From assembly GCA_903825245.1 (NCBI GenBank), contig CAIJZX010000037.1, positions 1 through 51,907 on the forward strand: DNA of 51,907 bases, written 5' to 3'. This document shows positions 848 through 16,873 of this stretch, in pieces. Under the pieces are notes generated by a model, which was given only the letters and a program-made list of their open reading frames with translations, was not told where the DNA came from and did no database searches. This DNA comes from Candidatus Kerfeldbacteria bacterium. GTDB lineage: Bacteria > Patescibacteriota > Patescibacteriia > SBBC01 > CAIJZX01. The position numbers and the translations under genes are program-made. Numbering within the stretch: position 1 is the first letter of the stretch; every line of letters starts with the position of its first letter.

Positions 848-1759
848 CTACTCGATCGGCCGTTCTTTGAGTGTCGCCTCGATATCTTCGCGGTTTTCTC
901 GTAGCGGCCCCGGGTAGGCGAGCTTTAAACTTGCGGCAGCAGCGGCGAAACGAGCGGCGGCGTGCGGAACATCAGACAATAAATGTTCAGCGACGTAGGC
1001 GGCAATAAACGTATCACCGGCGCCCGTTGGTTCAACGATTTTTTGGGCGGGAAAGGCTGGAACCTCAACCAATTCATTTGTTTCGCGGTGGAATATTGAA
1101 GCGCCTTTACTGCCTTGGGTGACAATCACTTCACTTGGTCCTTGTTCAGCCATAGCCCTAGCAACTGACAAAATTGATTCGCCCCGCTCGAGCGCCGGGG
1201 CAATATCTTCAACCGAAACGAAGACCATATTTAATGATTGCAATGTTTCCGCTTGGTTTGGCCAGGGATACCGCGGTTCAAGTACACCGTCTGGACGTAG
1301 GGTTCGGAAAAACTTTCCGACATCAGCCGCAAGCGATACGCCGAGTGAATGGCTAAGGTAGCGAATGAGATCGAGTGATAATTTTCCCTCAAGATCCGGC
1401 ATGAGCAACACCATGTCGCTGGAAATAATTGCTTGGCGCATATCTTCGGTCAGGTCGCTGACCGAAACGCTGTACGGATCGAGTTTGGTGGTCGCGATGG
1501 CCACATCGCCGTCGTGTGAATTTGTATTGACGGTGCCGGTGGGAATCGGAATGACGTGGGTGGTGACGGCATAACTGTTAAGCTCCTCGAGCAGGTCAAG
1601 ATCTTCTTCCGGCAACCACGTAATGAGTTCAACTTCAATACCGGTTTGTGCAGCTGCGGCGGCCGCAAATAATCCCTTACCCCCGACGATTTCGTGGACT
1701 TCGCCGTTGACTAAACTATTTCGATCGCGGCAGAGATATCCAAAGATAGTAATTTTCAT
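848..1759 (-). CDS. PfkB-family carbohydrate kinase
   Basis: 303 aa, the normal length for ribokinase-fold sugar kinases. Both family signatures are visible: the N-terminal Gly-rich segment GGKGLFAAAAAAQTG (about residues 26-40), which contacts the sugar, and the C-terminal EPTGAGDTFIAAY (about 243-255), containing the GAGD anion hole and catalytic Asp. It should phosphorylate a sugar or nucleoside with ATP in the cytoplasm; the substrate cannot be read from the sequence. The start codon overlaps the stop of the upstream dedA-like gene by one base (TAATG), so the two are translationally coupled in one operon that ends at the 779-809 terminator. Confidence 0.85.
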   Translation of the reverse strand: MKITIFGYLCRDRNSLVNGEVHEIVGGKGLFAAAAAAQTGIEVELITWLPEEDLDLLEELNSYAVTTHVIPIPTGTVNTNSHDGDVAIATTKLDPYSVSVSDLTEDMRQAIISSDMVLLMPDLEGKLSLDLIRYLSHSLGVSLAADVGKFFRTLRPDGVLEPRYPWPNQAETLQSLNMVFVSVEDIAPALERGESILSVARAMAEQGPSEVIVTQGSKGASIFHRETNELVEVPAFPAQKIVEPTGAGDTFIAAYVAEHLLSDVPHAAARFAAAAASLKLAYPGPLRENREDIEATLKERPIE

Positions 1760-3665: not shown

Positions 3666-3694
3666 TTGAATATCACAAAGAAATACGCTACACT
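3666..3694 (+). promoter_or_regulatory. Promoter of the tRNA-Gly locus
   Basis: TTGAAT (3666-3671), 17-nt spacer, TACACT (3689-3694). Transcription should begin near 3701, just before the first tRNA-Gly-like segment, so that segment is probably a transcribed leader rather than silent debris. Confidence 0.65.
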
Positions 3695-3706
3695 GTGACC
3701 GAACGT

Positions 3707-3793
3707 GCGGGTATCCCCGGCCTTAGCCGGGGCGAGCTCCTATCGGTATTATCTCGTCGTTCGACGGGATAGATGATCAGCTTTCTCCCGCTC
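3707..3793 (+). other. tRNA-Gly 5'-half-like leader with inserted hairpins
   Basis: The segment repeats pieces of the 5' half of the nearby tRNA-Gly in order: GCGGGTATC, TATCGGTATTA and TCAGCTTTC, stopping in the middle of the anticodon loop. Between them are insertions: a strong hairpin CCCCGGC-CTTA-GCCGGGG and a second hairpin TCTCGTC-GTTC-GACGGGATA. It ends TCCCGCTC. It is not a functional tRNA as it stands. The GCGGGTA at its start can pair with TACCCGC at 4079-4085, at the end of the matching 3'-half copy. Confidence 0.65.
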
Positions 3794-3848: not shown

Positions 3849-3919
3849 GCGGGTATCGTATATCGGTATTACCTCAGCTTTCCAAGCTGATGAGAGGAGT
3901 TCGACTCTCCTTACCCGCT
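3849..3919 (+). tRNA. tRNA-Gly(UCC)
   Basis: A full cloverleaf can be drawn: acceptor GCGGGTA/TACCCGC with discriminator T, anticodon arm TCAGC-TTTCCAA-GCTGA (anticodon TCC), T arm AGGAG-TTCGACT-CTCCT. CCA is not encoded. The flanks TCCCGCGA (3841-3848) and TCGCGGGA (3919-3926, including the discriminator) are perfectly complementary and extend the acceptor helix to 15 bp. Confidence 0.93.
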
Positions 3920-3956
3920 CGCGGGACGGAATTTTCAGTAGATATCAAAATGTCGT

Positions 3957-4089
3957 GCGGGACAAGCTGATGAGAGGGTTGAGTCGGCATCCGGAGGATA
4001 GCGACTGAACTGCTTCAGTCGCGGCCGTCGAAACGAGCAGCGCATGTTTCGAAGGAACAGCGATGCCTAGGACTCTCCTTACCCGCTCC
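3957..4089 (+). other. tRNA-Gly 3'-half-like trailer with insertion in the T loop
   Basis: Begins GTGCGGGA, then CAAGCTGATGAGAGG, exactly where the 5'-half copy stopped in the anticodon loop, and ends CTCTCCTTACCCGCTC. It is identical to the 3' half of tRNA-Gly except that the T loop is replaced by RNA element A. The GTGCGGGA can pair with the TCCCGCTCAC that ends the 5'-half copy, so the two halves could be brought together around the intact tRNA. Confidence 0.65.
3978..4073 (+). ncRNA. Conserved structured RNA element, copy A
   Basis: 96 nt beginning GTTGAGTC and ending GGAC. Hairpins: ATCC-GGA-GGAT; the 9-bp GCGACTGAA-CTGC-TTCAGTCGC at 4001-4022; and GTTTC-GAA-GGAAC at 4046-4058 within the longer TCGAAAC...GTTTCGA pairing. 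CGGC and GCCG can close the first two hairpins into a junction. It aligns with copies B and C along its length. Unknown family; whether it is an expressed functional RNA or a small mobile insertion is open. Confidence 0.6.
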
Positions 4090-4109
4090 AAGCGAATTTA
4101 CATTGAAAG

Positions 4110-4998: not shown

Positions 4999-6627
4999 TT
5001 ATTCGACCAGGGTCAGCGTGTGACCTTGAACACGATACGTGTGGTCACACAGTTGTCGGATTTGATCGTGGTGCGTAACGATCACAAATGTTTTTTGGTG
5101 GAGGCGAGCGCGAATGCAATCAATTGTTCGAGCGGCGGTGACGATATCCAGGTGAGAAATAGGCTCATCCAGTAAATAGAGATCACGGTCGAGCAGAATG
5201 GCTCGGGCTACATTCAATCGCTGTTTTTGGCCGGCCGATAATTTGACACCCTTTTCACCGACCACGGTATTGAGTCCTTCCGGTAAGGTCTGAACCCATG
5301 GCTCAAGGTCGAGATCGGCCAGCAACTGGTGGATGGTGGAGTCGCCCATGGTTTTTCCCAGTAACAGGTTTTCACGCAATGAGGCGTTGAAAATTTCTAC
5401 CTCTTGACTGACAAAAGCGATACGTTCTTGCCAGCTCACAACATCAAGATTGTCGAACGACTGGCCATCAATGGTTAGTGCACCGGATTGCGGTTCAAGG
5501 AACCCGGCCAGAATATTGAGCAATGTCGATTTACCCTCACCCGAGGTTCCGATGATGGCGAGATGCTCGCCACGTTGCAATAATAACCGAGGAATGGTGA
5601 TTGGCACATGATTGAGGTCGTAGCGAAAAACAACGTCCTGAAGCTCAACCCGGTGCCAGTCCGTTAACGGTATGCCATGTCGCTCAACCGCTTGGTTGAG
5701 GATATCGGTGAGATTATGCAGATAGGCTTGGTAGATCATCAGGCGGCGAATATTTTCGGTTGCTCGATCAATCGTGCCGCGAATAAACAAATAGGCGGAA
5801 ATGAAAATAATTAAGAGTGACACCGGTAGTTGTCCGCGTCCGACGCGTAAGGCAATCGTGCTCAGCGTGCTGATGAAGATCAGGCCGGACAGAAGATGAA
5901 GGAAGAACCAGCGCTTGGCGTGGAATGCTTGTAGTTGGTCGATATTGTCACTGACGGACACGATACGATCAGACATGACTGTTTCCGTGTATGATGCTAG
6001 TCCGAGTTTTCGGACGGTATGCATATTCGTCAAAAAATCGACGAAGCGTTCCATGTAGGCTGCTCGAGCGAGATTATATGTTTTTGCCTTGGGAATTTGG
6101 CCGCGCGACATCCAGGTACCAAAAACAAAGAACGCGATGAAGAGGATGACATTGAGAATTGCCAGTGTCAGTGAAGCCGCGGCGGTAAAGTAGAAGAAGA
6201 GTATGATTTGGGGCAAACTACTCACGGTTGACCAAAACGCATCCATCAAGATTGGCACCACGCCGTCAGACAGACGATTCATCAACGTCAATACTTGGCC
6301 GGAGTGGTGCTTGGTCAACTTATCAATCGGTACCCGTTCATATTCGCGGTAGAGACGGAGTAACGACTCAGTTTCGGTTTTCATGGCCGCTGCCTCACCA
6401 TACTTGCGAATGATCCATTGTAATCCCAGGCCGATAGCGTAAATAGCGATGACCAACCCGATCAGGAACGGATAGTGGTCGGGAGCGTTACTTGGTTTGG
6501 TGAATTCACTAAGCGTAATCGGAATCAAAAAAACACCGATACCATTGAGGAAGGCGATGATGAAGATAAACGTAAACGTACCGCGGTGCTCCCGCATCGT
6601 GCGCCCAATAAATCGTAGAATATCCAT
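4999..6627 (-). CDS. ABC transporter, fused permease and ATPase (exporter type)
   Basis: 542 aa. The N-terminal half holds about six hydrophobic segments (first at about residues 17-36). The C-terminal ATPase has Walker A GTSGEGKST, Q-loop FVSQE, signature LSAGQKQRLNVARA (canonical LSGGQ is LSAGQ here), Walker B LYLLDEP and the H-loop VTHH. This is a half-transporter that should work as a homodimer or with a partner. The substrate is unknown. It lies one base upstream of the NadR-like gene, an odd pairing, and starts about 20 nt past the alkyltransferase-like gene. Confidence 0.88.
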   Translation of the reverse strand: MDILRFIGRTMREHRGTFTFIFIIAFLNGIGVFLIPITLSEFTKPSNAPDHYPFLIGLVIAIYAIGLGLQWIIRKYGEAAAMKTETESLLRLYREYERVPIDKLTKHHSGQVLTLMNRLSDGVVPILMDAFWSTVSSLPQIILFFYFTAAASLTLAILNVILFIAFFVFGTWMSRGQIPKAKTYNLARAAYMERFVDFLTNMHTVRKLGLASYTETVMSDRIVSVSDNIDQLQAFHAKRWFFLHLLSGLIFISTLSTIALRVGRGQLPVSLLIIFISAYLFIRGTIDRATENIRRLMIYQAYLHNLTDILNQAVERHGIPLTDWHRVELQDVVFRYDLNHVPITIPRLLLQRGEHLAIIGTSGEGKSTLLNILAGFLEPQSGALTIDGQSFDNLDVVSWQERIAFVSQEVEIFNASLRENLLLGKTMGDSTIHQLLADLDLEPWVQTLPEGLNTVVGEKGVKLSAGQKQRLNVARAILLDRDLYLLDEPISHLDIVTAARTIDCIRARLHQKTFVIVTHHDQIRQLCDHTYRVQGHTLTLVE

Positions 6628-11900: not shown

Positions 11901-12039
11901 TCTCCCGCTCCCAAAGCAGGCGCGCTTCCGGGGCGCCGCCTGTTCCTTCGAAACATGGCGTCGTCCGTCTCGATCGTCGGAAGCAAAGCAGTTTGCTTCC
12001 TGACCGTTACACGGTCACGATCTCGACCCAACTGCGCCA
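11901..12039 (-). pseudogene. tRNA-Pro-like copy interrupted in the D loop by element B
   Basis: On the minus strand TGGCGCAGTTGG matches the D arm of the neighbouring tRNA-Pro. Then comes RNA element B, then GCGCGCCTGCTTTGGGAGC, which matches the rest of the D arm and the anticodon arm (anticodon TGG retained). The acceptor and T arms are degenerate. It cannot be a normal tRNA. Confidence 0.65.
11926..12028 (-). ncRNA. Conserved structured RNA element, copy B
   Basis: 103 nt on the minus strand, aligning with copies A and C. Hairpins: GACCG-TGTA-ACGGTC-type first stem; 9-bp GGAAGCAAA-CTGC-TTTGCTTCC (11979-12000), same CTGC loop as A and C but a different stem sequence; and GTTTC-GAA-GGAAC. 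GATCGT...ACGATC closes the first two hairpins. The block CATGTTTCGAAGGAACAG is identical to copy A apart from its first context base. Confidence 0.6.
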
Positions 12040-12318: not shown

Positions 12319-12408
12319 AGTCCCGGGCGTCGCTGTACCTATGATACATCGCGCCGCCCGTCTCGTCCCGCGAAAACTGAAGCAGTTCAGTTTTCTTGTA
12401 GACTCAAC
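12319..12408 (-). ncRNA. Conserved structured RNA element, copy C
   Basis: 90 nt on the minus strand, GTTGAGTC at the start as in copy A and GGGACT at the end. Hairpins: 10-bp GAAAACTGAA-CTGC-TTCAGTTTTC (12372-12395) and GTATC-ATA-GGTAC (12335-12347). The latter carries a compensated T-A to A-T change relative to GTTTC-GAA-GGAAC in A and B. GGGCG/CGCCC closes the 3' hairpin. The small first hairpin is missing. It sits in the leader of tRNA-Arg(UCG). Confidence 0.6.
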
Positions 12409-12484
12409 TCTTCCGGTTCGTAGTCAGACAAATTTTCATTGGGCGGAGTTTATCCCGTCATCTGACGAGAGGCGCATGTGACGC
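12409..12484 (-). other. tRNA-Arg-like leader fragment upstream of tRNA-Arg(UCG)
   Basis: On the minus strand the leader has TCTCGTC-AGAT-GACGGGATA (12451-12470), matching the tRNA-Gly leader except in the 4-nt loop. It then has TGTCTGACTACGAACCGGAA, which resembles the anticodon arm of the downstream tRNA-Arg(UCG) (TGTCTGGCTTCGGACCAGAA) with an ACG-type loop. Element C follows where a T arm would be. Confidence 0.5.
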
Positions 12485-16208: not shown

Positions 16209-16244
16209 ACTATATTATATATTATTTACTAATCAATGAAGGTT

Positions 16245-16330
16245 GGGGTGGCTATCCCCGTATCCCAACTGCGTCGGGTACGGGGCAGGCGGGATACGTC
16301 GTCGATTTGTATTATGCCCGCGCGGGTGGG
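16245..16330 (-). other. tRNA-His 3'-end-like trailer
   Basis: On the minus strand this segment ends GATAGCCACCCCA, identical to the 3' end of tRNA-His over 13 nt including the CCA. The T arm is replaced by a longer hairpin, CCCCGTACCC...GGGATACGGGG. It lies about 25-110 nt downstream of the intact tRNA. A companion 5'-half copy lies upstream (16476-16529). Confidence 0.55.
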
Positions 16331-16353
16331 TGTCACCCCAGACAAAAATTGTC

Positions 16354-16428
16354 TGGGGTGGCTATCGGGGTTCGAACCCGAGATAAAGGCTCCACAGGCC
16401 TCTGTGTTACCACTACACCATAGCCACC
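16354..16428 (-). tRNA. tRNA-His(GUG)
   Basis: Acceptor GTGGCTA/TAGCCAC with the extra G at -1 opposite C73, anticodon arm AGGC-CTGTGGA-GCCT (anticodon GTG), T arm CGGG-TTCGAAC-CCCG. The genome sequence continues CCA after C73. A 10-bp hairpin CACCCCAGAC-AATTTTT-GTCTGGGGTG (16334-16360) starts inside the acceptor 3' strand and would compete with the acceptor stem. Confidence 0.93.
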
Positions 16429-16475
16429 CGTGCGGACACGATTATGAGATTTGAAAAGGTTTAGGCCAGCGCCTG

Positions 16476-16529
16476 CCCCGTAAAACGCTCGGCGTTTTTC
16501 GGGGTGTTACCACTATCGCCTATGCCACC
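16476..16529 (-). other. tRNA-His 5'-half-like leader
   Basis: Minus strand GGTGGCATAGGCGATAGTGG followed by TAACAC resembles the 5' half of tRNA-His (GGTGGCTATGGTGTAGTGG-TAACAC). It then runs into a strong hairpin CCCCG-AAAAACGC-CGA-GCGTTTT-ACGGGG in place of the anticodon arm. Upstream of the intact tRNA on the same strand. Confidence 0.5.
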
Positions 16530-16628
16530 ATGTGTAGGCGGATTTTCCCAAAAAAAAGACATATTGTCAACCCAACATCGCTTTTTCTTACGTATAACGT
16601 TTTTCGGTCGGCGCTGAGGTAGTCGAGT

Positions 16629-16742: not shown

Positions 16743-16817
16743 GGCCCTATAGTTCAACGGATAGAACACCGGACTTCTAAGCCGGTTATGGAGGTTCGAT
16801 TCCTCCTGGGGCCACCA
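16743..16817 (+). tRNA. tRNA-Arg(UCU)
   Basis: Acceptor GGCCCTA/TGGGGCC with one G-U pair, discriminator A and encoded CCA. Anticodon arm CCGGA-CTTCTAA-GCCGG gives anticodon TCT (with an A-G mismatch closing the loop). T arm GGAGG-TTCGATT-CCTCC. Third distinct flank style: 7-bp ACTTGTG/CACAAGT beyond a short internal loop. Confidence 0.92.
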
Positions 16818-16837
16818 CACAAGTTTGATAAAATAAG

Positions 16838-16873
16838 CCCGTGATGATGGTTCAACTCCATCCGGGGGCACCA
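16838..16873 (+). other. Orphan tRNA 3'-half (T arm, acceptor strand, CCA)
   Basis: The sequence has a perfect T arm GATGG-TTCAACT-CCATC, then CGGGGGC-A-CCA, but no D or anticodon arm before it. It starts AAGCCCG, like the post-anticodon part of tRNA-Arg(UCU). The leader GCCCCT (from 16669) could serve as its 5' acceptor strand across the intact tRNA. Confidence 0.6.

Follow-up and report, generated by a model that had tools for sequence, protein, structure and literature searches.

We report that tRNA genes of a Candidatus Kerfeldbacteria bacterium, which from the names of the genome and its relatives we take to belong to the class ABY1 of Patescibacteria, are repeatedly accompanied by a second, interrupted copy of the same tRNA, and that in the clearest cases the intact tRNA gene lies inside this outer copy. 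The arrangement, its breadth and the structured RNA motif inserted in such copies are established by computation. Our reading that these are nested tRNA genes, i.e. that one transcript carries an outer tRNA-like RNA with a functional tRNA embedded in it, is inferred without expression data and we give it a probability of roughly 0.5. The stretch of DNA analysed (the window; 51,907 nt) is contig C37 of a genome of 1.30 Mb in 42 contigs, and for the genome-wide survey sequence stretches around the tRNAs were examined.

The locus in focus is that of tRNA-His, on the minus strand. The sole intact tRNA-His (GTG) gene was located by both ARAGORN and Rfam at 16427-16354 with G-1 at 16428 (16354-16428 with G-1 and CCA), and no second tRNA-His is present among the tRNAs found in this genome. 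Parts of another copy match in sequence on both sides of it: a 5' part with G-1, the acceptor 5' strand and the D-arm (16504-16529), and a 3' part, GATAGCCACCCCA, with the acceptor 3' strand, the discriminator and CCA (16244-16256). Specifically, besides its copy in the intact gene, GATAGCCACCCCA has a single further occurrence in the window, at 16244-16256, and the same is true of TAGTGGTAACAC, whose only other occurrence is at 16504-16515. Alignment of the intact tRNA-His with its own flanks, inserts being allowed, gave a score of 42, the best of 760 control flanks reaching 38. An earlier note, made from the sequence alone, had described this 5'-part/intact/3'-part layout on the minus strand and a strong hairpin following the 5' part; both held, while its 3'-part coordinates, 16245-16257, were off by one, the actual position being one base lower.

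The outer 5' copy starts with GGTGGC at 16529 and leads into this strong D-side hairpin, CCCCGAAAAACGC..GCGTTTTACGGGG followed by CAGG, at 16504-16476 (identified by folding and motif comparison). Folding also gives an extended T-arm hairpin of the outer copy (16256-16285), and a further hairpin (16334-16360; from sequence and fold) overlaps the 3' end of the inner tRNA-His. Promoter scoring identified a promoter-like site, TTGACA-17-GAAAAT with TG preceding the second hexamer, at 16542-16570, which ends 12 nt upstream of the outer 5' end. The 301-nt strand of the locus has a predicted fold of -137 kcal/mol (z -6.45), in which the outer 5' GGTGGC pairs with the outer 3' GCCACC and encloses the region of the intact tRNA; by this prediction the two outer parts can pair with each other as a single acceptor stem that surrounds the intact gene. 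The minimum-energy fold lacks the inner acceptor stem, of which the 3' strand pairs with the trailer and the 5' strand with sequence further along. Here the 12-bp hairpin at 16360-16334 competes with the acceptor stem of the intact tRNA-His in the predicted fold. This alternative pairing might represent a switch, or merely be a property of the predictor. The outer His copy has a bulge in its acceptor and no recognisable anticodon loop, and it is likely to be an older, partly decayed example of nesting.

Other tRNA copies in the window are nested or interrupted as well. The earlier note had compared the His layout with that of a tRNA-Gly, and this held: on the plus strand, sequence matches to an outer tRNA-Gly(TCC) at 3707-3785 (t1-34, with two inserted hairpins) and 3963-4090 (t35 to CCA; tRNA match t35-72) flank an intact tRNA-Gly(TCC) at 3849-3920, found by tRNA search, whose CCA is not encoded. 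The promoter-like site TTGAAT-17-TACACT (3666-3694, promoter scoring) precedes the outer copy, and the insert motif described below was placed within its T-loop by the motif model (3976-4073). On the minus strand, an interrupted tRNA-Pro(TGG) copy, with the insert motif in its D-loop (11926-12029; motif model and match), comes after the intact tRNA-Pro at 12130-12057, and the motif model places a further motif (12320-12410) upstream of tRNA-Arg(TCG) at 12289-12214. A tRNA-Arg-like 3' half with CCA was seen in the sequence at 16835-16873 on the plus strand, i.e. opposite to the His locus, 18 nt past the intact tRNA-Arg(TCT) at 16743-16817; nested tRNA-Arg(TCT) loci were also observed in genomes G006, G009 and G014.

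Exact matches of at least 12 nt to a tRNA gene within 350 nt of that gene, with the expectation derived from other tRNAs, were counted in three settings. Such self-fragments are present near 17 of the 45 tRNA genes of this genome (0.57 expected), which supports the earlier suggestion that recurrence at a second tRNA makes a one-off chance duplication less likely. In the same-family genome G002 the count was 12/36 (1.13 expected), and in five Patescibacteria outside the class it was 2/54 (1.05 expected). In a sample of 128 tRNA contexts, enriched for loci with tRNA fragments, 53 were above the 99% null. Fragment order is mostly tRNA-like, with 5' pieces ahead of the intact gene and 3' pieces behind it, or with the whole interrupted copy lying to one side, e.g. 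Ser-TGA in G059 (t1-34 upstream and t37-87 downstream of the intact tRNA) and Pro-TGG in L113 (outer parts t1-35 and t36-77). At the clearest loci the intact tRNA interrupts the outer anticodon loop and more structured inserts are present in the outer D-loop and T-loop. Junctions of the intact tRNA with the outer copy peak at positions 32-35 and 38-39, the remaining ones at 19 (G19) and 54/55 (T54/55). The excess in the anticodon loop is modest overall (13/40 junctions in positions 31-37 vs 21% in the null) and plain among the high-scoring cases.

Occurrence of nesting is patchy between close relatives. According to the earlier note, absence of the half copies from all close relatives would refute its claim; the comparison was run and this is not the case. 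In the same-family genome G002 (Kerfeldbacteria, 857-kb contig) a complete nested tRNA-His is present, with a compensated acceptor stem of its own, and in a same-order genome an interrupted tRNA-His copy lies downstream of the intact tRNA-His. His halves were not seen in the available flanks of the congener G001, and presence therefore varies between species. At L153 in genome G150, outside the class, a 5' half with a short insert on the D-side precedes tRNA-Ile(TAT) and ends at the anticodon (CTTAT; 1400-1750, minus strand), hence nesting-like copies occur at low frequency outside ABY1. Three further observations concern related arrangements. Two identical tRNA-Trp genes lie 109 nt apart at L068 (479-737 on G000:C2). 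At L067 (1130-1640 on G000:C41) tRNA-Cys is followed by a 5' part of tRNA-Gly whose D-loop holds the motif, and then by a second tRNA-Gly start, which beyond approximately position 43 gives way to a long stretch of unidentified sequence. L110 has a comparable motif-bearing tRNA-Gly part 730 nt past tRNA-Cys.

Whether the outer copies are maintained or decaying was judged from their stems and upstream sequences. At 20 loci, compared with 6.5 in controls, the upstream strand of the outer acceptor matches the downstream one, and therefore some of the 20 are chance matches. Several outer acceptors differ from the inner one and are nevertheless paired (His GTGACCA/TGGTCAC, Phe GCCGCGG/CCGCGGC and Pro CGGGGTG/CACCCCG). 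Where both sides of an outer stem pair have changed, 53 of 63 remain paired and 10 do not (37.5% paired is expected for random letters). Where only one side has changed, 41 are paired and 100 unpaired, some of these being alignment errors; as one-sided changes are mostly broken, decay coexists with constraint. It is possible that sequence differences between outer and inner copies predate the nesting. The signs as to whether the inner or the outer copy is ancestral are mixed: an outer Val acceptor resembles the functional tRNA-Val of a relative, and the outer His of G002 is unlike the usual tRNA-His. Promoter scores of at least 9 were obtained before 35% of nested outer 5' ends and 36% of plain tRNAs, vs 12% at the inner starts of nested loci and 10% at random sites; the paired test of outer vs inner sites gave only p = 0.06.

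The main insert is a covarying RNA motif of approximately 100 nt, found mainly in class ABY1. Alignment of six inserts from this genome showed double changes in 13/31 pairs, and the model built from them (R1) detected 8 copies in this genome and had hits in 17 of the 95 class genomes. Outside the class R1 was found in one family only, among 287 genomes drawn from the phylum, where one copy belongs to a nested tRNA-Trp locus. An alignment of 59 copies shows double changes at 30 of the 31 pairs, and 91% of its cells are paired vs 65% after shuffling. The motif has no Rfam match. Its share of G-U pairs (3.8%) equals that of tRNA stems, so the argument from few G-U pairs for a hairpin element acting as DNA only is uninformative. 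The D-side hairpin of the His locus (there with CAGG) represents a second motif, CCCCGUA..UACGGGGCARG, which recurs in outer copies of other tRNAs in several species; four sequences suggest a third one, in T-loops.

Of 51 copies of the main motif, 37 have an intact tRNA on their own strand no more than 400 nt away, 2 have one nearby on the opposite strand, and for 12 ARAGORN found none nearby. Copies away from tRNAs are found after 5S rRNA, before msrA, between genes and in repeats (genes following some copies we take to be fmt and murI), and a duplicated fragment of the neighbouring gene is often alongside. The motif after the 5S rRNA gene at L076 (G000:C27, 15960-16057, minus strand) is bracketed by two copies of the 5S 3' end and its flank, one inverted and one direct (22 nt identical). 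At L119 (G002 contig, 6047-6470, minus strand) three insert motifs are upstream of an intact msrA, each following or adjoining a diverged msrA start fragment. At L141 (G048) the motif is amid copies of another repeat (TTTGTCATCCCGGAATCGTGAGCGAGCG..). In G064 it lies between 11-nt direct repeats, and copy number differs strongly between genomes. The duplicated gene fragments at these non-tRNA sites favour an origin as an inserting, target-duplicating element, whatever the outer RNA does now. A pattern scan of IMG/VR for a viral origin returned nothing, although an exact pattern is insensitive; exact-pattern matches in Myxococcales, Deltaproteobacteria, Verrucomicrobiia and Planctomycetota were set aside since they had no covariance-model match.

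The nested-gene reading can be put as follows for the His locus. A single transcript would start at the promoter just ahead of the outer tRNA-His-derived RNA, which would retain the acceptor stem and CCA end and have its arms expanded by structured inserts. The functional tRNA-His would be embedded between the outer halves (in the clearest loci within the anticodon loop) and is inferred to be released by ordinary tRNA processing, i.e. RNase P and 3' trimming, the outer parts putatively surviving as a structured, non-decoding tRNA-like RNA. Such loci would likely have originated by duplication of a tRNA, or half of one, with structured elements inserted into the loops and the stems left intact. 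Co-transcription of outer and inner parts is inferred, promoter scores being its only support, and processing and any function of the outer RNA are likewise inferred.

The rival that survives best, and which remains possible, is a small non-coding structured insertion element that inserts preferentially into loops of RNA genes, namely at T54/55, within the anticodon loop or following GG in the D-loop, and copies a portion of its target, leaving an intact gene beside a displaced fragment; the outer halves would then be functionless relics. In its favour are the motif beside duplicated 5S rRNA pieces (22-nt direct repeat and inverted copy), the motif before msrA after three start fragments, the copy between direct repeats in G064 and the variable copy number. 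Against it, copies within a genome are very diverged while each still folds, unlike a recent burst; outer stems show compensatory changes and promoters are present at the outer end; and no mobilising enzyme has been identified. Specifically, Y1 transposase was found neither in this genome nor in G004, G010, G023, G063, G073, G089 and G095, all of which bear the motif. An element derived from REP/RAYT or IS200/IS605 was rejected on this ground, its expected Y1 transposase being missing from the motif-bearing genomes checked.

We consider it unlikely that ordinary tandem duplication or replication slippage at tRNA hairpins, with decaying partial copies and the hairpins serving only as breakpoints, accounts for the data. 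Some loci (L085, L120) do duplicate a tRNA 5' half together with its upstream flank, and the outer His copy and many one-sided changes look decayed. However, this explanation predicts neither the shared covarying insert motif nor inserts restricted to loops, and neither two-sided nesting nor compensated outer acceptor stems.

Even less credible is that the inserts, including the one bearing the inner tRNA, are introns whose removal joins the outer halves into another functional tRNA. When joined, the outer halves of Gly-TCC, Pro-TGG and Arg-TCT do yield an entire anticodon loop carrying the correct anticodon, and their stems pair. The anticodon loop of this genome's outer His copy is, however, unrecognisable, and T-loops are replaced in many outer copies. 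Neither tRNA splicing endonuclease (PF01974) nor RtcB (PF01139) had a match in the genome, which is estimated to be 100% complete, controls being as expected; archaeal-type splicing was rejected because its enzymes are absent, and splicing of the outer halves with known enzymes is improbable. Group I/II intron covariance models gave no match in the window and ten loci at gathering thresholds, or in six loci at permissive thresholds. Finally, chance was rejected by the cross-locus, shuffled and out-of-class controls, and an assembly artefact because the arrangement recurs on long contigs (857 kb and 881 kb) of other assemblies.

A 2014 review describes bacterial tRNA genes as structurally uniform apart from group I/II introns (PMC4033280), and we found no report of a nested-tRNA arrangement in bacteria in the open-access literature searched. 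Archaeal disrupted tRNAs (multi-intron, split and tri-split; PMC4033280) are similar in that the anticodon loop and other loops are interrupted and paired flanks hold the halves together, but here the organism is bacterial, the interruption contains an intact tRNA of the same kind, and splicing endonuclease and RtcB are lacking. At the Caldiarchaeum tRNA-Thr(GGU) locus (PMC3293823) a tRNA 5' fragment also precedes a tRNA of the same kind, an arrangement attributed to a mobile element; that, however, is one locus with a 1.8-kb recombinase-encoding element, whereas here many loci carry structured inserts of approximately 100 nt without a gene. Group I introns of bacterial tRNAs share the insertion in the anticodon loop; such introns are usually larger than the present inserts. 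They differ in that our inserts match no intron family and that the interrupted copy is accompanied by an intact tRNA. GOLLD RNA is likewise a large structured RNA near tRNA genes that sometimes contains a tRNA-like gene (PMC6582537), but it is linked to phages and is not known to derive from tRNA; the covariance models of GOLLD, ROOL and other Rfam RNAs found no match here. Integrative elements that attach at tRNAs also leave an intact tRNA with a downstream copy of its 3' end (about T-loop to CCA). The criterion of an integrase gene inside the element is not met here, because the spacers between intact and displaced sequence, mostly 50-200 nt, are too short for one, and unlike such elements these loci also have 5' halves and compensated outer stems.

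A bolder reading, to which we give clearly less than even credence, is that ABY1 encodes an expressed family of tRNA-like outer RNAs with a function of its own, one for each of many tRNAs, built around the cognate tRNA and often expanded by the motif, with roles in e.g. tRNA maturation, charging or control. Nested tRNAs across a bacterial class, together with a structured insert unknown to Rfam and signs of selection on the outer RNA, would amount to both a new gene architecture and a new family of RNAs. Nesting may also account for some truncated tRNA calls and contig breaks in these genomes, and the loci make tRNA maturation in the candidate phyla radiation directly testable.
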